Below are positions 10,075-23,247 of a stretch of 64,000 bases of DNA, one piece after another. Position 1 is the stretch's first letter; each line of letters starts with the position of its first letter. The translations under genes were made by a program, and so were the position numbers. The notes under the pieces are model-generated. The model made no database searches. It worked only from the letters and a program-made list of their open reading frames with translations, and had not been told where the DNA came from. The DNA comes from Brevundimonas sp. (GTDB lineage: Bacteria; Pseudomonadota; Alphaproteobacteria; Caulobacterales; Caulobacteraceae): assembly GCF_016742135.1 (NCBI RefSeq), contig NZ_JACVCG010000001.1, forward strand, positions 434,001 to 498,000, read 5' to 3'.

Positions 10075-11163
10075 ATGACACTGTTCGATTCGCCGTCGTT
10101 CTCGAACCATGAGGGCGTCCACGCCTTCTATGACGAAAAGACTGGCCTCAAGGCAATTGCTGCGGTGCACTCGACGGCGCGTGGTCCGGCGGTGGGCGGC
10201 ACGCGCATGTGGAACTATGCCACGGCCGCCGAGGCGCTTGAGGACGTGCTGCGTCTGTCGCGGGGCATGAGCTACAAGAATGCCGTGGCGGATCTCGAAA
10301 TGGGCGGCGGCAAATCGGTCATCATCGGCGACAGCCGCACCCAGAAGACTCCGGAACTGTTCCAGGCCTTTGGTCGCGCGATCAACACCCTGGGCGGCAT
10401 CTATTATGCGGCCGAGGACGTCGGAGTTTCGGTCGAGGACATCGCCGAGGCTCGCAAGGAAACCGAGTTCGTCGTCGGCCTGTCGGGCGGTAAGGAGGGC
10501 TCGGGCGACCCCAGCCCGGTAACCGCCGAAGGCGTGTTCCGCTCGACCCTGACGGTCGCGCGCCGCCTGTGGAAGCAGGACGATCTGACCGGATTGACGG
10601 TCGCGGTGCAGGGCATAGGACACGTCGGGGGTTATCTGGCGGACAAGCTCCACAAGGCCGGGGCCAAACTGGTGATGACCGACGTCAACACCGCCCTGCT
10701 GGAAGAGGTCGCGGCCCGCAACAACGCCGAGATCGTGGCCCCCGACGCCATCTATGACGTCAAGGCCGACATCTATGCTCCTTGCGCGCTCGGAGCGACG
10801 CTGAACCCCGAAACGTTGGACCGTCTTTCGGCCAGGGCCATTGTTGGGGCCGCCAACAATCAGCTGGCCACGCCAGAGATCGGTCGCATCCTGTTCGAGC
10901 GCGGGGTGCTGTACGCGCCCGACTATGTCGTCAACGGCGGCGGCATCATCAACGTCGCCTCGGAGATGGCGGCCCGGAACAGCGGCGGCGCATACGACCC
11001 GGCGTGGGTGGAGGGCAAGCTGGCCCGCCTGATGGAGACGCTGGAGGAAGTCCTGGAACGCTCCGACCGTGAGAAGCGTCCGACGAACGAAGTGGCCGAC
11101 GCCATCGCTGAAGCCCGTATTCAGGCCGCGGCGGACGAAAAGGTGAGGGCCCGCGCGGCCTGA
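10075..11163 (+). CDS. Leucine/phenylalanine-type amino acid dehydrogenase
   Basis: 362 residues of the Glu/Leu/Phe/Val dehydrogenase family. It oxidatively deaminates an amino acid with NAD+. The glycine-rich substrate motif with its lysine is LEMGGGKSVIIGD, the catalytic lysine region KNAVADLEMGGGK is intact, and the Rossmann NAD site reads VAVQGIGHVGGYLADKL. Leucine dehydrogenase is the best guess because of the short length and the PAVGGTRMWNYATAAEAL segment. It is monocistronic, with about 95 bases of upstream sequence ending in AGGAAAGG before the start. Downstream is the flagellar operon. Confidence 0.9.
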   Translation: MTLFDSPSFSNHEGVHAFYDEKTGLKAIAAVHSTARGPAVGGTRMWNYATAAEALEDVLRLSRGMSYKNAVADLEMGGGKSVIIGDSRTQKTPELFQAFGRAINTLGGIYYAAEDVGVSVEDIAEARKETEFVVGLSGGKEGSGDPSPVTAEGVFRSTLTVARRLWKQDDLTGLTVAVQGIGHVGGYLADKLHKAGAKLVMTDVNTALLEEVAARNNAEIVAPDAIYDVKADIYAPCALGATLNPETLDRLSARAIVGAANNQLATPEIGRILFERGVLYAPDYVVNGGGIINVASEMAARNSGGAYDPAWVEGKLARLMETLEEVLERSDREKRPTNEVADAIAEARIQAAADEKVRARAA

Positions 11164-11214
11164 GGCCTGATCGCGTGATCCGGCCACGGCTAATTCAGTA
11201 ATCCCTGTCGCCTC

Positions 11215-11231
11215 TTAACGCGCCGTTTACC
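11215..11231 (+). promoter_or_regulatory. Probable CtrA-binding site upstream of fliF
   Basis: The sequence TTAA (11215-11218), seven bases, then TTTACC (11226-11231) matches the alphaproteobacterial CtrA consensus TTAA-N7-TTAA with one mismatch in the second half. It lies about 30 bases before the annotated fliF start. In Caulobacter the fliF operon is a class II flagellar operon activated by CtrA, which supports the reading. Binding itself is inferred. Confidence 0.6.
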
Positions 11232-11260
11232 ATGCGGGCGGCACTTTCTGCCTAGCGGGC

Positions 11261-12928
11261 GTGTCGCCTGTAAGTAGGGGTGTTGGGGCGCGCGTGGGCG
11301 GCTTTTCAGGGGCTTTGCAGAGATTTGGGGTCGGGCGGCTGGCCGCCCTGGCGGGTGTGGCTGCCGGAGTCGCGGCGGTGCTCGTGGTCCTGATGCTGCG
11401 CATCGGCCAGGCACCTGACGCCTTGCTCTATTCCAACCTCGACCTGCGCGAGGCGTCCGAGATCACCTCGGCGCTGGACACGGCCGGCATCAAATATTCG
11501 TCGCGCGGCGACGGCTCGACCATCTTCGTCAGCCGGGACGAGGTCGGCAAGGCCCGCATGCTGGTGGCCGGCAAGGGGATCGTGACCAGCGGCTCGGTCG
11601 GCTACGAAATTTTCGACAACCAGTCGGTGCTGGGCCAGACCGAATTCCAGCAAAACCTGAATGCCAAGCGCGCGCTTGAGGGCGAGCTGGCCCGCAACAT
11701 CATGACCCTGCGCGGGGTTACCATGGCCCGTGTGCTGATCGCCCTGCCCGAGCGGGCCCTGTTTCAGGCCCAGGCGGCCGAGCCGACCGCCTCGGTCGTC
11801 GTTGGCCTCGGGGGGCGTGACCTGACCGCCGATCAGATCCGGGGGATCCGCTCTCTGGTCGCCTCCAGCGTGCCGAACCTCAAGCCCACACGGGTCACCG
11901 TCATGGACGACACCAACCGCACCCTGGCGGCGGGCGGCGATGAGGACGGCTTCTCGGGAGCGAGCGCGGACCGGATGAAGGCGACGACCGAGGCCCAGCT
12001 GCAGGCGCGGGTCATGGACGTGGTTCAGGGCATCGTCGGTCCCGGTGCCGCGCGCGTCCAGGTCACCGCCGAGATCGATCACAGCCGGTCAACGACCCAG
12101 GAGCAGCGCTTTGACCCGGATGGTCAGGTGGTGCGCTCCATGGCCATCAATGGCTCGAATTCTCAGGATACGACCGGCCAGCCCCTGGGCGGGGTGGGGG
12201 CCGACCAGAACATCCCGGGCGGCGAAGCGCCGGGGATCTCTGCCCAGGGCTCGACCCGCACGGACGAGACCGAAACGACCAACTATGAAATCTCGAACAC
12301 CCTGACCACGACGGTCCGCGAACCGGGTGAGGTCAAGAAGCTGGCCGTGGCGGTCGCCGTTGACGGCGTCTGGACGCCGGGGGCTGACGGGGCCGAGCCA
12401 ACCTATGCGCCGCGCACGCCCGAACAGATCACCGAGATCGAGGAGCTGGTGAAGGCCGCCGTCGGCTTCAGCGCCGAGCGCGGCGACATCGTCCGGGTCA
12501 GCAATGTCGCCTTCAATCGCGAGGTTGCTCCGAATGGGGGAACCGAGGCGGGGGGTGGTCTGTTCGACTTCACCAAGAACGACATGATGCGCGGTATCGA
12601 ACTGCTGGTGTTGCTGATCACCGGCGTACTGCTGATCCTGTTCGTGCTTCGCCCGCTGCTGAAGGCCACGACCGGTGGCGGCGGGGGGAGTGCTCCGGCG
12701 CTCGCGGGCGGGGTGGGCGTCACCCCGCTTCAGACGACGCCCGTCGGTGCTTCGGGCCAGGCGGCGGTGGGCCAGCTGGCCGGCCCGACCGACATGGAAC
12801 AACGTCTGGATATCGCCCGCATCGAAGGACAGGTGAAGGCGTCTTCGGTCAGGAAGGTCTCGGAGTTCGTCGAGCGCCACCCGGAGGAATCGACCTCGAT
12901 CCTCCGCAACTGGGTGCATGAAGGCTGA
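11261..12928 (+). CDS. fliF: Flagellar M-ring protein FliF
   Basis: 555 residues from GTG at 11261; another in-frame GTG at 11294 could be the real start. FliF forms the MS ring in the inner membrane on which the switch and export gate assemble. Transmembrane helix 1 is at about residues 26-47, the YscJ-like ring-building domains follow ([14 protein letters not shown], then [19 protein letters not shown]), a low-complexity linker lies in the middle, and helix 2 ([18 protein letters not shown]) is at about residues 447-464. The final 40 residues ([22 protein letters not shown]) are the FliG-binding tail. It overlaps fliG by one base (TGATG). A CtrA-like site precedes it. Confidence 0.96.
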
Positions 12929-13965
12929 TGGCGGCCCGGATGGTCACGCGCAAGGCTGCGGTCGAGGATGTCCGCAAGCTGACCGGCCCCGAAAAGGCGG
13001 CCGTCGTACTGCTTTCGCTCGGCGAGGAGCATACCCGCCTGTGGCAGGGTCTGGACGAGGACGAGATCAAGGAGATTTCCCAGGCCATGGCGGCGCTGGG
13101 TACGGTCAGCTCGACTGTGGTCGAGGAGTTGCTGCTTGAATTCGTCTCGGGCATGAGCGGCTCGGGCGCGGTCATGGGCAGCTTCGAGCAGACCCAGAAG
13201 CTGCTGTCGTCCTTCATGCCGCCCGACCGCGTCGAAGGGCTGATGGAGGAGATCCGCGGTCCCGCCGGCCGGACCATGTGGGACAAGCTGGGCAATGTGA
13301 ACGAGGCCGTTCTCGCCAATTATCTGAAGAATGAATACCCCCAGACGGTCGCCGTGGTTCTGTCCAAGATCAAGCCGGACCATGCTTCACGCGTGCTGAC
13401 GGCCCTGCCCGAGGACTTCGCCATGGAGTGCGTCCAGCGGATGCTGCGGATGGAGCCGGTCCAGCGGGAGATCCTCGACAAGATCGAGCAGACCCTGCGG
13501 ACCGAATTCATGTCGAATCTGGCGCGTACCTCGAAGCGCGACAGCCACGAGATGATGGCGGACATCTTCAACAGTTTCGACCGTCAGACCGAGGCCCGCT
13601 TCATCGGTGCCCTGGAAGAGCGCAACCGCGAGGCGGCCGAGCGCATCCGGGCCCTGATGTTCGTGTTCGAGGATCTCGCCAAGCTGGATCCCGGCGGCAT
13701 CCAGACGCTGTTGCGCGCGGTCGAAAAGGACCAACTGGCCCTGGCCCTGAAGGGGGCCTCTGAATCCCTGCGCGAACTGTTCTTCGGCAATATGTCCGAG
13801 CGGGCGTCCAAGATCATGCGCGAGGACATGGAGTCGATGGGGCCGGTGCGCCTCAAGGACGTCGATTCCGCCCAGATGGCCATGGTTCAGGTTGCCAAGG
13901 ATCTCGCCGCCAAGGGCGAGATCATGCTGGTGGGCCAGGGCGGCGATGACGAGTTGATCTACTGA
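12928..13965 (+). CDS. fliG: Flagellar motor switch protein FliG
   Basis: 345 residues, normal length. FliG sits on the cytoplasmic face of FliF and transmits torque from the stator. The N-terminal domain ([17 protein letters not shown]) binds FliF, the middle armadillo domain contains the EHPQ-equivalent [16 protein letters not shown], and the C-terminal torque domain carries the charged [26 protein letters not shown]-type helix region (residues about 245-270) and the [14 protein letters not shown] stretch. Start ATG overlaps the fliF stop. It is second in the five-gene flagellar operon. Confidence 0.97.
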
Positions 13966-13966
13966 C

Positions 13967-14629
13967 ATGACCCCGTCTCCCGCCCTCTCACGTCCCTTTG
14001 TCTTCGACACCGAGTTCGACGCCTCGGGTGCGGTCGTGCGGTCCACGGACTGGCAACCGGTCAAGCGCGCCTATTCGCCGGCCGAGGTGGAGGCGCTGGT
14101 TGCCCGGGCCCGCAGCGAGGGACATGCCGAGGCGCTTGCCGAGGTCGACAGCCGCAGATCATTGGCCATTGCCGACCTGAGCGCAGCCCTGGCCGCCAAC
14201 CTGCCGCGACTGGCCGGTGTCGTGGAGACCTATCGCGAACAGACCGCCGACCTGGCCCTTGCGACCGGGCGTGCCCTGGCCTTCACCGCTCTGGATCGTC
14301 TGCCCCGTGCCGCCGTGCAGGCGGCGCTGGAGGCACTGGGCCGCGAGATCGACGCCTCGCCCCGTCTGGTGATCGCCATGGCCGGTCTGGACGAGGCCGG
14401 GCGCGCCGAGATCGAAACGCTGTGCGCCAATGTAGGTTATGCGGGGGCCGTCCGCTTTCGCGACCAGCCGGGCGCGACGCAGGCCGCCTTTGAGCTGGAA
14501 TGGACCGACGGCCGCGCCGCCTTTGATCCCGAAGAAGCCTTCACCCGACTGTCCGCCGCGGTCGCCCGCGCGCTCGCCGCTGACCAGACCCCCGATACCG
14601 CCGAATCGTCCGAAGGGATGACCCCATGA
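13967..14629 (+). CDS. flbE: FliH-like flagellar export protein FlbE
   Basis: 220 residues. Position between fliG and fliN, and the composition (a variable N-terminus, then a long alanine/glutamate-rich helical region about residues 45-110 and a conserved C-terminal domain), fit FlbE, the Caulobacter FliH-like protein. FliH proteins hold the export ATPase FliI inactive and link it to the C-ring through FliN. The match is from gene order plus general character rather than a strong motif. The stop overlaps the fliN start by ATGA, one base separates it from fliG. Confidence 0.85.
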   Translation: MTPSPALSRPFVFDTEFDASGAVVRSTDWQPVKRAYSPAEVEALVARARSEGHAEALAEVDSRRSLAIADLSAALAANLPRLAGVVETYREQTADLALATGRALAFTALDRLPRAAVQAALEALGREIDASPRLVIAMAGLDEAGRAEIETLCANVGYAGAVRFRDQPGATQAAFELEWTDGRAAFDPEEAFTRLSAAVARALAADQTPDTAESSEGMTP

Positions 14630-14958
14630 CTGCTGACAATCTGCCGCTTGAAGAGTTCGATCACGGGGTCATGCCCGTGCCGACCGAGGATGGCCTGGAC
14701 AAGTCCGCCAGCGACCTGGCCCCGGTATTCGACGTGCCGGTCAACATCTCGGCCGTGCTGGGCAAGTCGCACATGTCGGTCGCCCAGTTGCTGAAGCTGA
14801 CCAGTGGCTCGGTGCTGGAGCTGGACCGCAAGGTGGGCGAGGCCATCGACATCTTCGTCAACAACCGGCTGGTCGCGCGTGGAGAGGTGGTGGTGGTCGA
14901 GGACCGCCTGGGCGTGACCATGACGGAAATCATCAAGACCGAGGACACGGGCGCCTGA
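14626..14958 (+). CDS. fliN: Flagellar motor switch protein FliN
   Basis: 110 residues with the complete SpoA (surface presentation of antigens) domain: FDVPVNISAVLGKSHMSVAQ, LLKLTSGSVLELDRKVGEAI, DIFVNNRLVARGEVVVVEDR and the VTMTEII end. FliN forms the lower C-ring of the flagellar switch and recruits the FliH-FliI export complex, in line with its overlap with the fliH-like gene flbE. The first 35 residues are acidic and probably flexible. Confidence 0.96.
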   Translation: MTADNLPLEEFDHGVMPVPTEDGLDKSASDLAPVFDVPVNISAVLGKSHMSVAQLLKLTSGSVLELDRKVGEAIDIFVNNRLVARGEVVVVEDRLGVTMTEIIKTEDTGA

Positions 14959-14996
14959 GTTTGGCGACCGGCAGTGAGATTTAGAGGAGAAGACCC

Positions 14997-16370
14997 ATGC
15001 GGCTTCTGGTAGTTGGCAGACTGAGCGGGCAACTGGCCTCGGCCGTGAAAATGGCCATGGCCCACGGGGCCAAGGTGCATCACGTCGAGCGGGGCGATCA
15101 GGCCACGGAACAGCTGCGACGGGGGCAGGGCGCGGACCTGCTGATGGTCGATTATCGCATCGACATCGCCGCCCTGATCGCCGCCAATGAGGCCGAGCGC
15201 ATCCATGTGCCGGTCGTGGCCTGCGGCGTCGATGCGGGGCCGGACGATGCCGCCGCCACCATCCGCGCCGGGGCCAAGGAGTTCATCCCTCTCCCGCCCG
15301 AGGCGGATCTGATCGCCGCGGTCCTGTCGGCGGTGGCCGACGACGACCGCCCCCTGATCTCGGCCGATCCGTCGATGAAGGCGGTGATCGGTCTTGCGGA
15401 TCAGGTCGCCCGCTCGGAAGCCTCGATCCTGATCACCGGCGAAAGCGGCGTCGGCAAGGAGGTGATGGCCCGGTATCTGCACCAGAACTCGCGTCGCGCC
15501 GACAAGCCGTTCATCAGCGTCAACTGCGCCGCGATTCCGGACAATCTGCTCGAGTCCGAACTGTTCGGCCATGAGAAAGGTGCCTTCACCGGCGCCGTGG
15601 CCCGCCGGGTCGGCAAGTTCGAGGAAGCCGACGGCGGCACCCTGCTGCTGGACGAAATCAGCGAGATGGATGTGCGGCTGCAGGCCAAGCTGCTGCGCGC
15701 GCTTCAGGAGCGCGTCATCGACCGCGTCGGCGGCACGACCCCGGTCAAGGTGGATATCCGCATCATCGCCACCTCGAACCGCGACCTGGCCCGCTCGGTC
15801 TCGGAAGGCACTTTTCGCGAGGACCTGCTGTACCGGCTGAACGTCGTCAATCTGCGCCTGCCGTCCCTGCGCGAGCGCCCGGGCGACATCCCCGCGCTGG
15901 CTGACTTTTTCGTGCGGAAATATGCGGCCGCGAATGGTGTGCCGGTCCGTCCGATCTCGGCCGACGCGCGCCGCGCCCTGATGGCCCATCGCTGGAACGG
16001 AAACGTCCGGGAGCTGGAAAACGCCATGCACCGCGCCGTGCTTCTGGCTCAGGGGTCTGAGATCGATGCCGACGCCATCCGCCTGCCCGACGGCCAGCCC
16101 CTGACCGGGGCCGTCTATGATGCAGGCCCTGCCGGTCGCGCCGCCCAGACGGCCGATGCGGTGACCCGCGCCTATGTGGGCCAGACCGTGGCGCAGATGG
16201 AAAAGACCCTGATCCTCGACACCCTGGGTCACTGCCTCGGCAACCGCACCCATGCCGCCAACATTCTGGGCATCTCGATCCGCACCCTGCGCAACAAGCT
16301 GAACGAATACGCCGACGAAGGCACGCCCATCCCGGCGCCCCAGTCGGGCATTTCCGCCGCTGTCGGCTGA
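14997..16370 (+). CDS. flbD: Sigma-54-dependent flagellar regulator FlbD
   Basis: 457 residues. An N-terminal receiver-like domain (about 1-110) lacks the usual acidic pair after beta 1 (it reads VGRLSGQ) but keeps an aspartate in LLMVDYRID. The AAA+ domain contains Walker A GESGVGKE, the sigma-54-contacting GAFTGA loop, Walker B GGTLLLDEIS and the HRWNGNVRELEN sensor. The C-terminal Fis-type helix-turn-helix is HAANILGISIRTLRNKLNEY. In Caulobacter, FlbD activates class III/IV flagellar promoters and represses fliF in response to assembly. The gene follows fliN by 38 bases with GGAG before the ATG, as in the Caulobacter operon. Confidence 0.95.
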   Translation: MRLLVVGRLSGQLASAVKMAMAHGAKVHHVERGDQATEQLRRGQGADLLMVDYRIDIAALIAANEAERIHVPVVACGVDAGPDDAAATIRAGAKEFIPLPPEADLIAAVLSAVADDDRPLISADPSMKAVIGLADQVARSEASILITGESGVGKEVMARYLHQNSRRADKPFISVNCAAIPDNLLESELFGHEKGAFTGAVARRVGKFEEADGGTLLLDEISEMDVRLQAKLLRALQERVIDRVGGTTPVKVDIRIIATSNRDLARSVSEGTFREDLLYRLNVVNLRLPSLRERPGDIPALADFFVRKYAAANGVPVRPISADARRALMAHRWNGNVRELENAMHRAVLLAQGSEIDADAIRLPDGQPLTGAVYDAGPAGRAAQTADAVTRAYVGQTVAQMEKTLILDTLGHCLGNRTHAANILGISIRTLRNKLNEYADEGTPIPAPQSGISAAVG

Positions 16371-16381
16371 GGAGCGCGCGC

Positions 16382-17299
16382 GTGGATCGCCGACGCCTTC
16401 TTACGGGTATGGCGGCCCTGCCGCTGGTGGCCTGCCAGCGTCCGGAGGCGCAGGCCGATGCTGTCAAGGAAACCGTGGAATGGTTCCTGCCGGAAGCACA
16501 GGCGCTCGACCTCTCGGATCTGGAAGCCCGCTTCGGGGGTCGCCTCGGGTTCGGCCTGATCACGCCTGACTATCGACTGCTGTCGTGGCGGTCCGAGGAG
16601 CGCTTTGTCTATTGCTCGACCTTCAAGGCCTTTCTCGCCGCGGCGACGCTTGAGCGCATCCAGAAGGGCGAGGAACGACTGGACCGCGAGATCGCTGTCA
16701 CCGCCGCCGACATGACGCACCACGCTCCCGCCACCGAGCCCGCGGTGGGTGGCACACTGACGGTGGAGGCTCTGATGAAGGGGACGGTCGAACTGAGCGA
16801 CAACCCCGCTGCGAACCTGCTGCTGCGCGAGATGGGCGGGCTTGCACGCATGCAGGATTTCTATCGAAGCCTTGGCGATACCGTCACCCGGGTCGACCGC
16901 TGGGAACCCGAGATGAACCGGCTGGACGGCGACAAGGACACGACCTCGCCCCGCGCCGCCGCGACCAATCTTTACGCGCTTCTGGTCAACCGGGATGACG
17001 GTTCACGCCCGAGCGGACCCCTGGATGATGCCTCGATCACGAAGCTGAAGGGCTGGATGTTTGACACGCCGACCGGCCCGGGTCGCATCAAGGCCGGGCT
17101 GTCTTCGGGCTGGACCACAGCGCACAAGACCGGGACGGGGGGCTATGGCCCGACGAACGACATCGGCGTGATCTATGCTCCCGATGGCACGGCACTGCCC
17201 GTGGCAGTCTATTACCACGCGGGCCGGTCGTCCCGGGAAACAGACCGTGACGCCGTCATCGCCGAGGCCGTCCGGCGGGCGTTGGGGACCCTCGCATGA
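16382..17299 (+). CDS. Class A serine beta-lactamase, lipoprotein with Tat-like signal
   Basis: 305 residues from GTG at 16382, with GAGGAG just upstream. All class A motifs are present: nucleophile S79-x-x-K82 (CSTFKAF), SDN at 139-141, omega-loop Glu175 with Asn179 (RWEPEMN) and KTG at 249-251. The enzyme should hydrolyse beta-lactams in the periplasm. The leader begins with RRRLL, like a Tat signal, and also contains a lipobox LVAC (Cys18), so it may be a membrane-anchored lipoprotein. It lies between flbD and flhA, and its stop overlaps the flhA start by ATGA, so it is probably transcribed with the flagellar operon. Base composition does not obviously differ from its neighbours. Confidence 0.95.
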   Translation: MDRRRLLTGMAALPLVACQRPEAQADAVKETVEWFLPEAQALDLSDLEARFGGRLGFGLITPDYRLLSWRSEERFVYCSTFKAFLAAATLERIQKGEERLDREIAVTAADMTHHAPATEPAVGGTLTVEALMKGTVELSDNPAANLLLREMGGLARMQDFYRSLGDTVTRVDRWEPEMNRLDGDKDTTSPRAAATNLYALLVNRDDGSRPSGPLDDASITKLKGWMFDTPTGPGRIKAGLSSGWTTAHKTGTGGYGPTNDIGVIYAPDGTALPVAVYYHAGRSSRETDRDAVIAEAVRRALGTLA

Positions 17300-19398
17300 C
17301 GGACGCCCCCGTCATGATGAAGGACGGCATGGCCCGGCCTTCGGGCAGGGACATGCTGGGCTGGATCGCGCGCGGCGAGGTCGGCATGGCCGTCGGCGTC
17401 ATCGGCGTCATCCTGTTGCTGATCCTGCCGATCCCGGCCTTCCTGATGGATATGTTGCTGGCGATCTCGCTGATCTCCAGCGTGCTGATCCTGATGACGG
17501 CTCTGATGATGAAGAAGCCGCTGGACTTCGCCATCTTCCCGACGGTGCTGCTGGTCTCGACCCTGTTCCGGCTGGGGCTGAACCTGGCCTCGACCCGGCT
17601 GGTTCTGACGAGCGGGCACGAGGGAGGCGACGCCGCCGGCCATGTGATCGAGGCGTTCGGGGCCCTGATGATGGGCGGCAGCTTCATCATCGGCATCATC
17701 GTCTTTGCCATCATTCTGGTGGTGAACTTCGTCGTCATCACCAAGGGCTCGACCCGGATCGCCGAGGTCTCAGCCCGCTTCACCCTCGACTCCATGCCCG
17801 GCAAGCAGATGGCTATCGACGCCGATCTGTCGTCGGGCCTGATCAGTGAGGACCAGGCCAAGACCCGGCGCAAGGAACTGGAGCAGGAGTCGACCTTCTT
17901 CGGCGCCATGGACGGTGCCTCGAAATTCGTGCGCGGTGACGCGGTCGCCGGGCTGATCATCGTCTTCATAAATGTGCTGGGCGGCATTCTGATCGGCACC
18001 CTGCAGCACGGCATGCCCATGGGCGAGGCGGCCTCGGCCTATGTCCAGCTGACGATCGGGGACGGTCTGGTGACCCAGGTCCCGGCCATCATCATCTCGA
18101 TCGCGGCCGGCTTTCTGGTGTCCAAGGCCGGGGTCGAGGGCTCGGCCGACAAGGCCCTGGTCAGCCAGCTGGCCACCAATCCGATCAGCCTCGGCATGGT
18201 GGCGGCGGCCTCGGCCCTGATCGGCCTGATCCCGGGCATGCCGCTTCTGCCCTTTTTCGCCCTGGCGGCCGGGGCCGGCTTCATGGCCTGGCGACTGGGT
18301 CGGGCACGCCTGAAACCGGCACCTGTTGAGACGGCGGAGTCGGCCAAACCCCGCGAGGACGTCGAGGAGCCTATCCAGACGGCCCTCAACATCGATGAGG
18401 TCAAGATCGAGCTGGGCTATTCCCTGCTGGCCCTGATCAACGACCTGGAAGGCCGTCGCCTGACCGATCAGGTCCGCGCGCTGCGCCGGTCGCTGGCGCA
18501 GGAGTACGGCTTTGTCATGCCGGCCGTGCGCATTCTCGACAACATGCGTCTCGGGACCCAAGGCTATGCCATCCGGATCAAGGAGATGGACGCCGGAAAA
18601 GGTGAGGTTCGTCTTGGGCAACTGCTGGCCATGGACCCGGCGGGCCGCCAGGTCGAACTGCCCGGCGAACACACCAAGGAACCGGCCTTTGGCCTGCCCG
18701 CCACCTGGATCGACGAGTCCCTGCGCGAGGAGGCGACCTTCCGCGGCTACACGGTGGTCGACCCCTCGACCGTGTTGACGACCCACCTGACGGAAATCCT
18801 GAAGGAGAACATGGCCGAATTGCTGTCCTATGCCGAGGTGCAGAAGCTGCTGAACGGTCTGGAGGGCGAGGAGAAGAAGCTCGTCGAGGACCTGATCCCC
18901 GGCTCGGTGACCGTCACCACCCTGCAGCGGGTCCTGCAGGCCCTGCTCAAGGAAAAGGTCTCGATCCGGGATCTGCCCGCCATTCTGGAGGGACTGGCGG
19001 AAGCCGCCCCCCACACCAGTTCAGTGACCACCCTGGTCGAACACGTCCGGAGCCGTCTGGCGCGTCAGCTGTGCTGGCAGCACAAGGCCGACGATGGGGC
19101 CCTGCCCATCGTAACCCTGTCGCCCGAATGGGAGCAGGCCTTTGCCGAGAGTCTGGTGGGACAGGGCGAGGACAAGCAGCTGGCCATGGCCCCGTCACGC
19201 CTGCAGGATTTCATCCGCGCCGTGCGGGATGTGTTCGAGAGAGCCGCCATGTCCGGCGAGACGGCGGTGCTGCTGACCGGGCCCCAGGTGCGGCCCTATG
19301 TCCGCTCGATCATCGAACGCTTCCGCGGTCAGACGGTCGTTATGAGCCAGAACGAAATCCACCCGCGCGCGCGCCTACGGACGCTGGGACAGGTCTGA
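17296..19398 (+). CDS. flhA: Flagellar biosynthesis protein FlhA
   Basis: 700 residues, the normal size. FlhA forms the nonameric export gate of the flagellar type III apparatus. The N-terminal half has about eight transmembrane segments with the FHIPEP-type conserved loop (FAIFPTVLLVSTLFRLGLN and the cytoplasmic TKGSTRIAEVSARFTLDSM region, which holds the charged residues needed for proton coupling). The C-terminal cytoplasmic domain (from about residue 350) binds chaperone-substrate complexes and includes SLLALINDLEGRRLTDQV, the DPSTVLTTHL stretch and the C-terminal LARQL and RTLGQV ends. The start overlaps the beta-lactamase stop. Confidence 0.96.
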   Translation: MTDAPVMMKDGMARPSGRDMLGWIARGEVGMAVGVIGVILLLILPIPAFLMDMLLAISLISSVLILMTALMMKKPLDFAIFPTVLLVSTLFRLGLNLASTRLVLTSGHEGGDAAGHVIEAFGALMMGGSFIIGIIVFAIILVVNFVVITKGSTRIAEVSARFTLDSMPGKQMAIDADLSSGLISEDQAKTRRKELEQESTFFGAMDGASKFVRGDAVAGLIIVFINVLGGILIGTLQHGMPMGEAASAYVQLTIGDGLVTQVPAIIISIAAGFLVSKAGVEGSADKALVSQLATNPISLGMVAAASALIGLIPGMPLLPFFALAAGAGFMAWRLGRARLKPAPVETAESAKPREDVEEPIQTALNIDEVKIELGYSLLALINDLEGRRLTDQVRALRRSLAQEYGFVMPAVRILDNMRLGTQGYAIRIKEMDAGKGEVRLGQLLAMDPAGRQVELPGEHTKEPAFGLPATWIDESLREEATFRGYTVVDPSTVLTTHLTEILKENMAELLSYAEVQKLLNGLEGEEKKLVEDLIPGSVTVTTLQRVLQALLKEKVSIRDLPAILEGLAEAAPHTSSVTTLVEHVRSRLARQLCWQHKADDGALPIVTLSPEWEQAFAESLVGQGEDKQLAMAPSRLQDFIRAVRDVFERAAMSGETAVLLTGPQVRPYVRSIIERFRGQTVVMSQNEIHPRARLRTLGQV

Positions 19399-19407
19399 CG
19401 CGTCCGG

Positions 19408-20115
19408 TCAGTTGACCTCGGTCCAGCCTTCGGACGAGGCCTGACGCGCCGCCTCATTCGTCGGCCGGGCCACGAGACCGGACTGGGTGATCCAGACCTC
19501 ATATTCCGCGCCATCGGCCATCGGCATATAGGCCCCGCCGCCATACAGGGTGTCGACGGCATCGACATAGCGGCGATAGCGGCGGGCCGTATCCCAGGCG
19601 CTGATCCTCCAGGGCAGGGCATCGGGCTGGTCTCCGCCACTCAGGTCATGGACGCTGCGGATGCCCTCGCGTTCCTGCTGGATCGACCGGTAGCGTCCCG
19701 ACAGGCGGTCCAGCCGATACTGGGTATCGAGGCCCAGCACGGTGGCCCAAGGTTTCCAGCGCAGGACCTGGGCCTCGATCCGCCATTCATCGCCGTGCAG
19801 GGGGTAGACGGTCGTGACGGGAACGTTGGCATCCCCCGCCGCCGGCTGGATGACGGTCGTCTCGAAATACTGTGGCCCCAGTTGCTTGACCTGGATCGTG
19901 GCCACGGGCCGTTCATGGGTAAGCCGGGCGTAGGTCTGGATGTTCATGCCCAGCAGGGCCGCGATCGCCGCAGCTGCGGCCAGGCCCCCGCCGCCGATGG
20001 CCCCAAGGCCACCGCTCAGGAATTTGCCCCGAAAAAATGCCCCAAGTCCGCTGAACAGAAAGATGACACCTGCCGCGCCGACGATCGCCGGAATAATCCA
20101 CCACCACCAGACCAT
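19408..20115 (-). CDS. Predicted membrane protein of unknown function
   Basis: 235 residues. The N-terminus has two hydrophobic segments (about 3-24, WWWWIIPAIVGAAGVIFLF, and 33-55, glycine/alanine-rich), followed by a soluble domain of about 180 residues with alternating strands (RPVATIQVKQLGPQYFETTV, DEWRIEAQVLRWKPW) and a YDTLYGGG-like late motif (VDTLYGGGAYMPM). The large domain should be exposed on one side of the membrane. I do not recognise a characterised family. It converges on flhA with 9 bases between stops and is divergent from the CHASE3 kinase. Confidence 0.8.
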   Translation of the reverse strand: MVWWWWIIPAIVGAAGVIFLFSGLGAFFRGKFLSGGLGAIGGGGLAAAAAIAALLGMNIQTYARLTHERPVATIQVKQLGPQYFETTVIQPAAGDANVPVTTVYPLHGDEWRIEAQVLRWKPWATVLGLDTQYRLDRLSGRYRSIQQEREGIRSVHDLSGGDQPDALPWRISAWDTARRYRRYVDAVDTLYGGGAYMPMADGAEYEVWITQSGLVARPTNEAARQASSEGWTEVN

Positions 20116-20222
20116 GTCGCCCCCTTAACGCTACGGCTTCATCGCATGCTAACCCTAAATCGCGGGGGCGTCGAAGGTTTCACCCGACACGCGACTGGAC
20201 TTGGCGAGGGGGGCGGGTAAAC

Positions 20223-21764
20223 GTGGCCGCGATGGCCTGGGACCTCCGTGAAAATCTGACGGCATTCAGCCGCTTCCTGCGCACGGCCAGCCTTGGGCGG
20301 TCACTGCTTGGTTTGCTGTCGCTGGCGCTTGTGCTTCTGCTGGTCGTCAATCTGGCGACCTTCTTCATGATCGGTCGCACGGCCCAGTTCAATGACAGCC
20401 TCGATCGCAGCCTTCGCGTCCAGATGGCCGCGCGCGACGTCCTGACCCGTCTTGTGGACGCCGAAACCGGCCAGCGGGGCTATCTGCTGACGGGGCGCCA
20501 GCAGTTTCTGGCCATCCATGACGATGCCATCCGCGACCTGCCGCTGGTGATGCAGGAACTAGACGATCTGACGGCAGATGATCCGCAGGTGCGCCAACGG
20601 GTCGACCGCCTGCGGGATCTGACCCGAGAACGGCTGAGTGTAATGGACGCCAGCATCGCCCTGGCCCGGAGCGGTCGAGCCGGCGACGCGGTTCAGATCG
20701 TCCGCGACGGACGGGGCAGGGAACTGATGGACGCCATGCGAGCGGAACTCGCCGACATCGACTTGATCGAAAGCGAACGGTTCGACGCCCGCCGTCAGCA
20801 GTCCGAATGGTCCGCGCGGGCGACCATCGGCGTCAACGCCATGGCGGCCGTTCTGGTCCTGATGCTGGCCGGGATCATGGCCTGGATCGTGCTGCGTTAC
20901 CTGCGGGAGATGCAGGCCGCGCACTACGAACTGGATCGGATCAATGCCAATCTGGAGAATGAGGTCCGGGACCGCACGGGCGACCTCATCCGGGCCAATG
21001 AGGAGGTCCAGCGTTTCGCCTATATCGTCAGCCACGACCTGCGCGCGCCCCTGGTCAATGTGATGGGCTACACCTCAGAACTCGAGCAGGCGGGCAAGAC
21101 CATCGACCGCCAGATGACCAGGGTCGAAACCGAGGCACCGGGTGTGCTGGAGCGCGATGCCCTGGTCGCCGTGCGTGAGGATGTGCCCGAGGCCATCAGC
21201 TTCATCCGCGCCTCCACTGAAAAGATGGACCGGCTGATCAACGCCATCCTCAAGCTGTCCCGCGATGGGCGACGGGTGCTCTCCGCGGAGCCCATCAATA
21301 TGACGGCCATGGTCGGCAAGATTGCCGACAGCGTGAACCATCAGACGGAAAGCGCCGGTGCCGAGATCGAGGTGGCCGAGCTGCCGGTGCTGACCGGCGA
21401 TCGCCTGTCGCTGGAGCAGGTGTTCGGCAATATGATCGACAATGCGGTCAAATATCTGGATCCGAAGCGTCCGGGGCGTATCCGGATCGAAGGTCAGGAT
21501 CTGGCCGACGGCATGGTCGAATACCGGATCATCGACAACGGCCGGGGCATCTCCGAGCGCGACCACCAGCGGATCTTCGAACTGTTCCGGCGATCGGGCA
21601 AACAGGACCAGCCGGGCGAGGGCCTGGGGCTGGCCTTCGTCAGGAACAGCATTCGCCGCATGGGCGGCGACATCGCCGTGGAGTCGAGACTGGGCGAAGG
21701 CTCGACATTCATCCTCAAATTTCCCAAACGTCTCTACGTCTCGGACAACGGAACCCTGTCATGA
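20223..21764 (+). CDS. CHASE3-domain sensor histidine kinase
   Basis: 513 residues from GTG at 20223; ATG at 20232 is an equally good start. Transmembrane helix 1 is at about residues 28-50, then a CHASE3 periplasmic domain with the typical VDAETGQRGYLLTG motif, helix 2 near 205-225, a short coiled coil, and a HisKA/HATPase core: H-box FAYIVSHDLRAPL, N-box NMIDNAVKYL, G1 DNGRGIS and G2 GEGLGLAFV. The arrangement is that of phytochrome-like/Rcp1-linked membrane kinases. The stop overlaps the next receiver gene by ATGA, so that receiver is its likely phosphotransfer partner. Confidence 0.93.
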   Translation: MAAMAWDLRENLTAFSRFLRTASLGRSLLGLLSLALVLLLVVNLATFFMIGRTAQFNDSLDRSLRVQMAARDVLTRLVDAETGQRGYLLTGRQQFLAIHDDAIRDLPLVMQELDDLTADDPQVRQRVDRLRDLTRERLSVMDASIALARSGRAGDAVQIVRDGRGRELMDAMRAELADIDLIESERFDARRQQSEWSARATIGVNAMAAVLVLMLAGIMAWIVLRYLREMQAAHYELDRINANLENEVRDRTGDLIRANEEVQRFAYIVSHDLRAPLVNVMGYTSELEQAGKTIDRQMTRVETEAPGVLERDALVAVREDVPEAISFIRASTEKMDRLINAILKLSRDGRRVLSAEPINMTAMVGKIADSVNHQTESAGAEIEVAELPVLTGDRLSLEQVFGNMIDNAVKYLDPKRPGRIRIEGQDLADGMVEYRIIDNGRGISERDHQRIFELFRRSGKQDQPGEGLGLAFVRNSIRRMGGDIAVESRLGEGSTFILKFPKRLYVSDNGTLS

Positions 21765-22186
21765 CCACACCCGTCAAAATTCTGATGATCGAGGACGATC
21801 ACGGCCACGCGCGACTGATTGAGAAGAACATCCGTCGGGCCAACATCTCGAACGAGATCGAACATTTCGCCGACGGCACCTCGGCGCTGGAGCATCTGTT
21901 CAGCGAGGCGGTGCTGGCCAATGGTCCACTGCTGATCCTTCTGGATCTGAACCTGCCGGACATGTCGGGCACCGACATTCTGGAGAAGATCAAGTCGGAT
22001 GCCCGGCTGCGGCGCGCGCCCGTGGTGATCCTGACCACTACCGACGACAAGACGGAAATCCAGCGGTGCTATGATCTGGGCTGCAATGTCTACATCACCA
22101 AGCCGGTGGAGTATGAATCCTTCTCGGAAGCCATCCGGCAGCTGGGCCTGTTCCTGTCGGTCATCCAGGCTCCCGAAATCGATTGA
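21761..22186 (+). CDS. Single-domain response regulator (Rcp1/CheY-like)
   Basis: 141 residues, only a receiver domain. Acidic pair IEDDHGHARL, phospho-acceptor in ILLDLNLPDMSG, the T in VVILTTTDD and the lysine in VYITKPVEYESF are all present. The form (ARLIEKNIRRANI, LDLNLPDMSGTDIL) is typical of Rcp1-type regulators that act as shuttles next to CHASE3 or phytochrome kinases. It overlaps the kinase upstream by four bases and the receiver-kinase downstream by four, forming a three-protein relay. Confidence 0.93.
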   Translation: MTTPVKILMIEDDHGHARLIEKNIRRANISNEIEHFADGTSALEHLFSEAVLANGPLLILLDLNLPDMSGTDILEKIKSDARLRRAPVVILTTTDDKTEIQRCYDLGCNVYITKPVEYESFSEAIRQLGLFLSVIQAPEID

Positions 22187-23247
22187 ATGAGCACTGTTTG
22201 GAACCGCTGACCACACCCTTGCGCCTGCTGTACATCGACGACGACCGCGGCCTGTCGCGGCTGGTCGAGAAGGAGCTTGGCCGTCAGGGCTTTGTGGTGA
22301 CCTGCGCCGCTGATGGCGAGGCAGGGCTGGAGTGCCTGAAAAGCGGGCAGGTGTTCGACGTCTGCGCCCTGGACCACTACATGCCCGAGCGCGATGGCCT
22401 GGACGTCCTGCCGGATATCCTGGCCCTGCCGGACCCGCCGCCGGTCGTCTATGTCACCGGGGCCCAGGAAGGCCGCATTGCCGTGGCCGCCCTTCGCGCC
22501 GGGGCCGCGGACTATGTGATCAAGGACGTGTCGGAGGATTTCACCTCGCTCCTGCGCTCGGCCATCGAGGACGCCCACAACCGGCGCCGCCTGCAGCGGG
22601 AGAACGAGACCGCCCAGGACGAGGTCCGCATGGCTCGCGACCGGGCCGAGGCCATGCTGCGCGAGGTCAACCACCGGGTGGGCAATTCGCTTCAGCTGGT
22701 GTCCAGTTTCATCTCGCTGCAGATGCGGCAGTTGGCGGACGGGGCGGCCCGGGACGCCCTGCGCGAGGCCCAGGCCCGCATCGAGGCGGTCGCGCATGTG
22801 CACCGCAGGCTGTACACCTCGGGCGACATGGCCCAGGTGGCCGTGGACGAGTATCTGAAGAGCCTGATCGAGGAACTCTCCGCTTCCCTGGGCCGTGAGG
22901 ACAGCGCGCCCAACCTGACCCTGGACGCCGACCCCATGAAGGTCGGAACCGATCAGGCGGTCTCCCTGGGTGTGATCGTAACCGAACTGGTCACCAACGC
23001 TGTCAAATATGCCTATCAACCCGGTCAGGGCGGGGACATTCGCGTCCACCTCAAGGCTGATGGCGAGGGGCGAGCCCTGCTGACGGTCGAGGACGACGGC
23101 GTCGGTCTGGGCGACCCGTCGCAAGGGCCGAAGGGCACGGGGCTGGGCTCAAAGATCATCGCGGCCATGGCGGGTGGTTTGCGCTCGAAGGTCGATTTCG
23201 ACACGGCGCACAAGGGCGTGCGCGCCCGCCTGGCCTTCGATCTCTAG
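22183..23247 (+). CDS. Receiver-HisKA_2 histidine kinase
   Basis: 354 residues. An N-terminal receiver (YIDDDRGLS, phospho-acceptor in CALDHYMPERDG, lysine in YVIKDVSEDF) is joined by a helical linker to a HisKA_2/HWE-like kinase: phospho-His in LREVNHRVGNSLQLV, N-box VTELVTNAVKYAY, G-box DDGVGLG and KGTGLGSKI. Kinases of this class feed the alphaproteobacterial general stress response (PhyR) in several species, but a link is not shown here. The start appears to be TTG at 22183, overlapping the receiver gene; TTG at 22198 is an alternative. It probably reads the phosphorylation of the preceding regulator pair. Confidence 0.9.
   Translation: MNEHCLEPLTTPLRLLYIDDDRGLSRLVEKELGRQGFVVTCAADGEAGLECLKSGQVFDVCALDHYMPERDGLDVLPDILALPDPPPVVYVTGAQEGRIAVAALRAGAADYVIKDVSEDFTSLLRSAIEDAHNRRRLQRENETAQDEVRMARDRAEAMLREVNHRVGNSLQLVSSFISLQMRQLADGAARDALREAQARIEAVAHVHRRLYTSGDMAQVAVDEYLKSLIEELSASLGREDSAPNLTLDADPMKVGTDQAVSLGVIVTELVTNAVKYAYQPGQGGDIRVHLKADGEGRALLTVEDDGVGLGDPSQGPKGTGLGSKIIAAMAGGLRSKVDFDTAHKGVRARLAFDL

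Follow-up and report, generated by a model that had tools for sequence, protein, structure and literature searches.

We report that a class A beta-lactamase gene, bla, lies between the flagellar genes flbD and flhA in a Brevundimonas sp. genome (the window, i.e. the whole stretch of DNA analysed, is 64,000 nucleotides long), and that within the genus this gene shows a sharply bounded divergence at a fixed site, incongruent with that of its neighbours and with conserved catalytic residues. We consider it likely that bla encodes a genus-intrinsic, exported and probably lipid-anchored class A enzyme in the early fli operon, and that its alleles have been replaced at this fixed site.

The bla gene and its product

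The open reading frame at positions 16382-17299 (plus strand) is complete according to both the ORF prediction and the sequence check, has a GTG start and encodes 305 amino acids. The predicted protein, Bla, scores 243.3 bits against the NCBIfam class A beta-lactamase profile NF033103 (cut-off 200) and 124 bits against Pfam PF13354 (cut-off 22), and its nearest solved chains are beta-lactamases, with 4c6y, 4b88 and the GNCA set at the top. The STFK, SDN, ExxxN and KTG motifs are all present in the window copy. With Ambler numbering assigned from the spacing of the motifs, these correspond to the nucleophile Ser70 together with Lys73 (STFK, 16616-16627), the Ser130 motif (SDN, 16796-16804), the general base Glu166 together with Asn170 (EPEMN, 16904-16918) and the Lys234 motif (KTG, 17126-17134), all on the plus strand. 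By profile score and catalytic motifs Bla is a class A beta-lactamase, and it would be expected to hydrolyse beta-lactams. Sequence and profiles hence agree with an earlier note on this DNA, in which a complete class A enzyme between flbD and flhA, with an ATGA overlap, had been described.

The comparison within the genus covers 39 copies, namely locus L033 and those from 38 of the 40 genomes that represent the genus in the family sample; L001, L002 and L108-L123 were duplicates or off-target sequences and did not enter the Bla set. STFK, SDN and KTG, the Glu and Asn of the ExxxN motif, and Cys69 are unchanged in 39/39 copies, and 62 of the 263 positions of the mature protein are invariant. 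Bla has the family and the catalytic motifs in common with chromosomal class A enzymes such as PEN, L2 and others; unlike PEN and L2, it sits between flbD and flhA, and it falls far under the subfamily cut-offs shown. Specifically, among the best 25 of the 102 matched families no cut-off for a named class A subfamily was reached, the best named one being PEN-Bcc (194.4 bits vs a cut-off of 540), with L2 coming after it among the best.

The genome that contains the window (2.6 Mb, 8 contigs) has bla as its only NF033103 match, and the other two classes searched in it, B3 and class C, gave no above-cut-off match. One further PF13354 locus scored above the cut-off (46 bits); the motifs of this 475-aa ORF resemble those of a D-alanyl-D-alanine carboxypeptidase.

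Signal sequence

The N-terminus of the window copy, VDRRRLLTGMAALPLVAC, combines a twin arginine with a strict lipobox: a Tat-type signal (DRRRLL) is encoded at 16382-16435 (plus strand) and ends at the lipobox cysteine (LVAC, residue 18). An RR within residues 1-12 plus [AGS]C within residues 11-30 is found in 39/39 genus copies, and the strict four-letter lipobox in 21 of them, the window copy included. The Tat-like RRRLL motif and the lipobox to which the earlier note drew attention are thus both present in the window copy and kept, in lipobox-like form, across the genus. Among 10 same-site copies from other genera the twin arginine is present near the start in nine, and an [AGS]C cysteine within the first 40 residues in none. 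On these motifs, Brevundimonas Bla would be exported and is probably lipid-anchored.

Organization of the flagellar operon

The window has, all on the plus strand, fliF (11261-12928; PF01514, PF08345), fliG (12928-13965; TIGR00207), a fliH (flbE)-like gene (13967-14629; NF004693, 206 bits, under the cut-off of 288), fliN (14626-14958; TIGR02480, PF01052), flbD, encoding the sigma-54-dependent flagellar regulator (14997-16370; NF050807, 808 bits, cut-off 750), bla, and flhA, encoding the flagellar export gate protein (17296-19398; TIGR01398, 912 bits, cut-off 772). The genes flbD, bla and flhA are tightly packed with no mobile-element gene between them. The flbD stop codon TGA is at 16368-16370 and 11 nt separate flbD from bla, while the flhA ATG (17296-17298) overlaps the bla TGA (17297-17299), forming an ATGA at 17296-17299 (plus strand). 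An in-frame flhA start that overlaps the bla stop is present in 31 of the 39 genus copies (in the remaining ones the next flhA start is 47-59 nt downstream in seven and adjacent in one), and in 7 of the 10 same-site copies of other genera. Past flhA, at 20223-23247 and on the same strand, there is a gene for a CHASE3 histidine kinase, followed by a response-regulator-like ORF and a regulator/kinase-like ORF.

No promoter-like site was seen for bla, which has the same strand as the fli operon and tight spacing. A promoter scan of 10900-20200 aimed at sigma-70-like sites gave none, CtrA and sigma-54 core patterns had no match in 10901-17500, and near the flbD-bla junction there are two bare matches to GG-N10-GC. 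Upstream of fliF there is a candidate CtrA box, TTAACGCGCCGTTTACC (11215-11231, plus strand), with one mismatch to the CtrA motif; it is the sole match in the window at ≤2 mismatches, where 0.92 would be expected by chance. We also looked for a conserved block inside bla that would hint at an internal flhA promoter, and the last third of the gene is unconserved in most pairs with unlike alleles (see below), the exception being a short block, conserved in one group of copies and located approximately 50-70 nt upstream of the flhA start.

These sequence features support that bla is built into the flagellar operon. Given the tight spacing and the ATGA overlap we propose read-through into bla, i.e. 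the gene would be transcribed together with the early flagellar genes, from fliF to flhA, and be translationally coupled to flhA. In Caulobacter, as described in PMC3930126, CtrA switches on the early flagellar genes, and fliF afterwards comes under repression by FlbD; by analogy, this control might carry over to the Brevundimonas fli operon.

Distribution of bla in Brevundimonas and other Caulobacteraceae

A bla match (E ≤1e-20) was found in 123 of 131 genus genomes and FlhA in 129, which rules out that bla is a single-species oddity. In all 123 bla-bearing genomes the match has contig and strand in common with flhA, and in 121 it is at most 200 nt upstream of flhA, so that the synteny across Brevundimonas, a comparison suggested in the earlier note, is well borne out. 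As to the other two, G271 has a genuine gap of 677 nt between bla and flhA, and the 366 nt listed for G199 reflect a late-starting FlhA match, the genes themselves adjoining. One bla locus, G257:C229:22280-23154 (L153), is split in two, one part being interrupted by stops, and may be a pseudogene or an assembly error.

Eight genus genomes have no bla match, and six of these have FlhA. The flbD-flhA sites of G117, G186, G258 and G262 were read and are without bla; G278 has a gap of approximately 230 nt without bla, and in G234 the contig ends. In G186 (L057) a stub of the bla start, TDRRSVLT, is present, and the sequence across the flbD-bla junction is 84% identical over 83 nt to that of a bla-bearing relative; a weaker stub, ARRQVLT, is present in G117 (L056). 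Since these stubs resemble the start of the bla signal peptide, both genomes would once have had bla, which points to its absence having resulted from internal deletion.

The four bla-less genomes with read sites retain near full-length matches to both FlbD and FlhA, and this bears on the function of Bla. Its fixed place early in the operon, the overlap with the flhA start in 31/39 copies and the lipoprotein-like signal in 39/39 could be taken to mean that Bla serves flagellar assembly, or local remodelling of the cell wall at the flagellar pole, rather than antibiotic defence. However, apart from the retention of FlbD and FlhA where bla is missing, a bla homologue is present even in some family genomes without an FlhA match (e.g. 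G021, G034, G046 and G055), the residues that mark a beta-lactamase are retained, and 13 of 20 other genera are without bla at any flbD-flhA locus read. We therefore regard a flagellar role as improbable.

In the wider family a bla-type match at 1e-5 was obtained in 154 of 199 sampled genomes. Among 49 loci from 20 other Caulobacteraceae genera, each with flbD and flhA (a biased sample, partly picked for a nearby bla), bla lies between these two genes in 10, which come from seven genera, and is missing there from the other 39. The site is therefore not genus-specific; nor is bla universal at this position in Caulobacterales, in keeping with the earlier note. That note had also described flbD and flhA as neighbours in Caulobacter, without this gene between them. 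The named control Caulobacter vibrioides, with no NF033103 match at E 0.001, lends this indirect support, although the broader PF13354 does match in that genome.

Three further observations concern other genera or other loci. Eleven genomes of the genus coded g22 (G035, G082, G096, G116, G126, G138, G164, G170, G173, G185 and G197) have a class A-like homologue that is outside the operon, on the other strand and at a distance of approximately 22-29 kb from flhA. In genus g14 (G141, G029 and G145; L088, L089 and L090) approximately 1.8-1.9 kb without a bla match separate flbD and flhA. A second, distant FlhA-like protein (38-45% identity) is encoded beside the normal FlhA at G211:C11:478954-480933, with partial matches in G206, G207, G217 and G230, and perhaps belongs to another type III export system.

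A plasmid search returned at least 5000 matches, and all those listed are below 60% identity to the window Bla. The best plasmid match listed is a class A enzyme from Bosea sp. (NZ_CP102773.1:197609-198379; 48.9%), which is about as near to the window Bla as the best homologues from other Caulobacteraceae genera.

Divergence of bla compared with neighbouring genes

Over the 741 pairs formed by the 39 genus copies, the Spearman correlation of identities was 0.72 for FlbD vs FlhA and 0.30 for FlhA vs Bla. Judged by FlhA, the window's closest relatives are four species (96-98% identity), whose Bla proteins are just 50-60% identical to the window's, and 34 of 118 more distant species have a Bla with more than 60% identity to it. 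Eleven pairs, chosen for contrast and not at random, were compared in windows of 300 nt. For seven of them the DNA identity was 85-90% directly before bla, 59-70% in all three bla windows and 84-93% directly after it; in G183/G165 it drops over the first two thirds of bla only, G159/G192 and G127/G198 show a slight and uneven drop over bla, and G168/G155 shows none.

The pair G002/G253 illustrates this pattern: protein identity is 99.3% for FlbD and 98.7% for FlhA (94-95% at the DNA level) vs 47.4% for Bla (58% DNA), and in windows of 100 nt the two sequences match completely (100%) in the last window before bla, drop to 49-71% within the gene and return to 97% where flhA begins (the G253 assembly consists of 320 contigs). 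The Bla of G253 is in turn 82-85% identical to those of G058 and G246. Where alleles are unlike, they begin to diverge within approximately 10 codons of the bla start and are alike again within approximately 25 codons of the flhA start. An assembly artefact is unlikely for the whole set; the unlike-allele pairs include genomes of 1-20 contigs, and the contig counts are e.g. 1 for G155, 6 for G078, 7 for G058 and 7 for G159.

As a collinear control we used 284 kb of the window's contig, in which 229 genes were called. Of these, 185 are in collinear context with G002, and the 154 matched over at least 60% of their length were kept (29 of the 185 lacked any collinear match). With 58.4% identity vs a median of 92.3%, bla is third lowest of the 154 G000/G002 pairs. 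Two pairs rank below it, one for an 85-aa ORF and one for a 239-aa ORF that contains low-complexity stretches, and besides bla four other pairs are at or under 65.2%.

In eight unlike-allele pairs the synonymous divergence (dS) of bla is 0.93-1.59, where values of about 1 or above near saturation under the simple method used. Seven of these pairs have dS values of 0.17-0.80 for the other operon genes, and the eighth, G171/G078, has values of 0.75-1.48, so that the values for bla are mostly two- to several-fold above those of the neighbours; in G171/G078 the FliH dS of 1.48 nearly matches the Bla dS of 1.59. In four like-allele pairs the bla dS is 0.20-0.51 and within the range of the neighbours. 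The dN/dS ratio in these four pairs is approximately 0.12-0.30, which together with the retention of the gene in 123/131 genomes argues that bla is in use. This bears on the view that the position is an accident, i.e. an old and tolerated insertion whose expression and exchange are without consequence. A single origin of all operon copies would suit such an accident (one clade for all 49 operon bla copies is not rejected by the AU test, p 0.381, although the free tree splits them), as would the losses (6 of 129 FlhA-bearing genomes are without a bla match, G234 being a contig end), but in view of the retention and the dN/dS values we judge it very improbable, slightly more so than a flagellar role.

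Phylogenetic incongruence and proposed replacement of alleles

In the Bla tree (83 rows, without L040) the genus copies form a single clade with a support of 100. Within the genus, 12 of 22 supported splits of the flank tree are contradicted by supported splits of the Bla tree, and allele groups I and II require at least four changes on the flank tree, in which the named Brevundimonas MAG Ess09-07 (L033) falls inside the genomes of the same genus, in agreement with the genus given in the earlier note. AU tests on Bla, for groups chosen with the identity table already known, reject four groups that the flanks support (G000 with G002 and G058; G171 with G078; G139 with Ess09; G192 with six relatives; p ≤0.0003) and do not reject G000 with G002 (p 0.225). 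Given this last result, replacement between G000 and G002 rests on dS (1.27 vs 0.17-0.56) and on low identity. G183 and G165 group with support in the Bla tree too, despite a Bla dS of 0.93, and here the change of allele looks partial or mosaic.

Could bla instead never have been replaced, and have diverged rapidly at its present site, driven by diversifying selection or held by little constraint? At the protein level Bla is indeed more divergent than its neighbours even in like-allele pairs, e.g. G159/G127 (87.1% vs 98.7% for FlbD and 97.6% for FlhA), and G000 with G002 is the group left unrejected. Nevertheless, synonymous divergence is high for unlike alleles only, the excess in the eight unlike-allele pairs being absent from the four like-allele pairs, and this is what tells replacement and fast evolution apart. 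Moreover, G253 Bla is close to those of G058 and G246 and only 47% identical to that of its sister G002, the catalytic core is invariant, and the conflict between supported trees, involving four clades, leaves room for fast evolution in single lineages only, e.g. G000 vs G002. As a general explanation we find fast evolution in place hard to credit, about as much so as a flagellar role.

We therefore favour replacement, in which the allele at the fixed site would repeatedly have been exchanged for divergent alleles from other Brevundimonas species. Donor DNA would be taken up and then recombine homologously within the conserved flagellar genes that flank bla; since the divergence begins and ends near the gene boundaries, exchange would most likely have occurred via recombination in flbD and flhA. 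Because all genus Bla copies form one clade, the simplest assumption is that the donors, too, belong to the genus. Such in-place exchange of divergent alleles was missed in the interpretation given in the earlier note, of which the part on the build of the operon stands at the level of sequence.

A more speculative extension, which we think rather doubtful though better placed than the alternatives above, is that the flbD-flhA junction acts as a genus-wide exchange platform for bla. The motility genes would then serve as recombination arms, and selection by natural beta-lactams would keep divergent alleles in circulation. Control by CtrA/FlbD would largely confine production of the enzyme to the time at which a new flagellated cell forms, and the sister cells of one division could then differ in beta-lactam tolerance.

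Relation to known systems and implications

A fixed place, incongruent gene and flank trees, and sharp boundaries, as expected for an intrinsic locus that is exchanged, were all found for bla. The closest precedent that we found for the proposed exchange of its alleles is ant(3")-II of Acinetobacter, encoding intrinsic aminoglycoside nucleotidyltransferases (PMC5313234). Both are intrinsic genes of a genus in one conserved region, with several divergent clades that recurrently moved, or in the case of bla would have moved, between species by homologous recombination. They differ in that bla encodes another enzyme, which would act on another drug class, in that the abstract of PMC5313234 names no flagellar operon, and in that for ant(3")-II resistance was tested.

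Among relatives, Caulobacter crescentus also has an intrinsic beta-lactamase, BlaA, to which the available text of PMC13046382 attributes its intrinsic ampicillin resistance; unlike Bla, BlaA is there described as a metallo-enzyme, encoded in a five-gene operon with methionine-synthesis genes. The 'penP' of Brevundimonas brasiliensis (299 aa, identified via KEGG, 60% identity; PMC10269605) is, as far as the text available goes, likewise a class A gene of the same genus and possibly the same locus, and the part of PMC10269605 at hand gives no flagellar operon position and no allele exchange. A literature search, in which few subscription papers were covered, found no description of bla in a flagellar operon.

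Taken together, an intrinsic resistance-type enzyme would be tied to the flagellar programme, and possibly also to that of the cell cycle, in a genus that includes clinical isolates. Should bla be transcribed in step with the flagellar programme, cells of different types would differ in beta-lactam tolerance. Our data further suggest that enzyme diversity spreads by allele swapping at a fixed chromosomal site, and resistance surveys restricted to mobile genes would miss such allele traffic.
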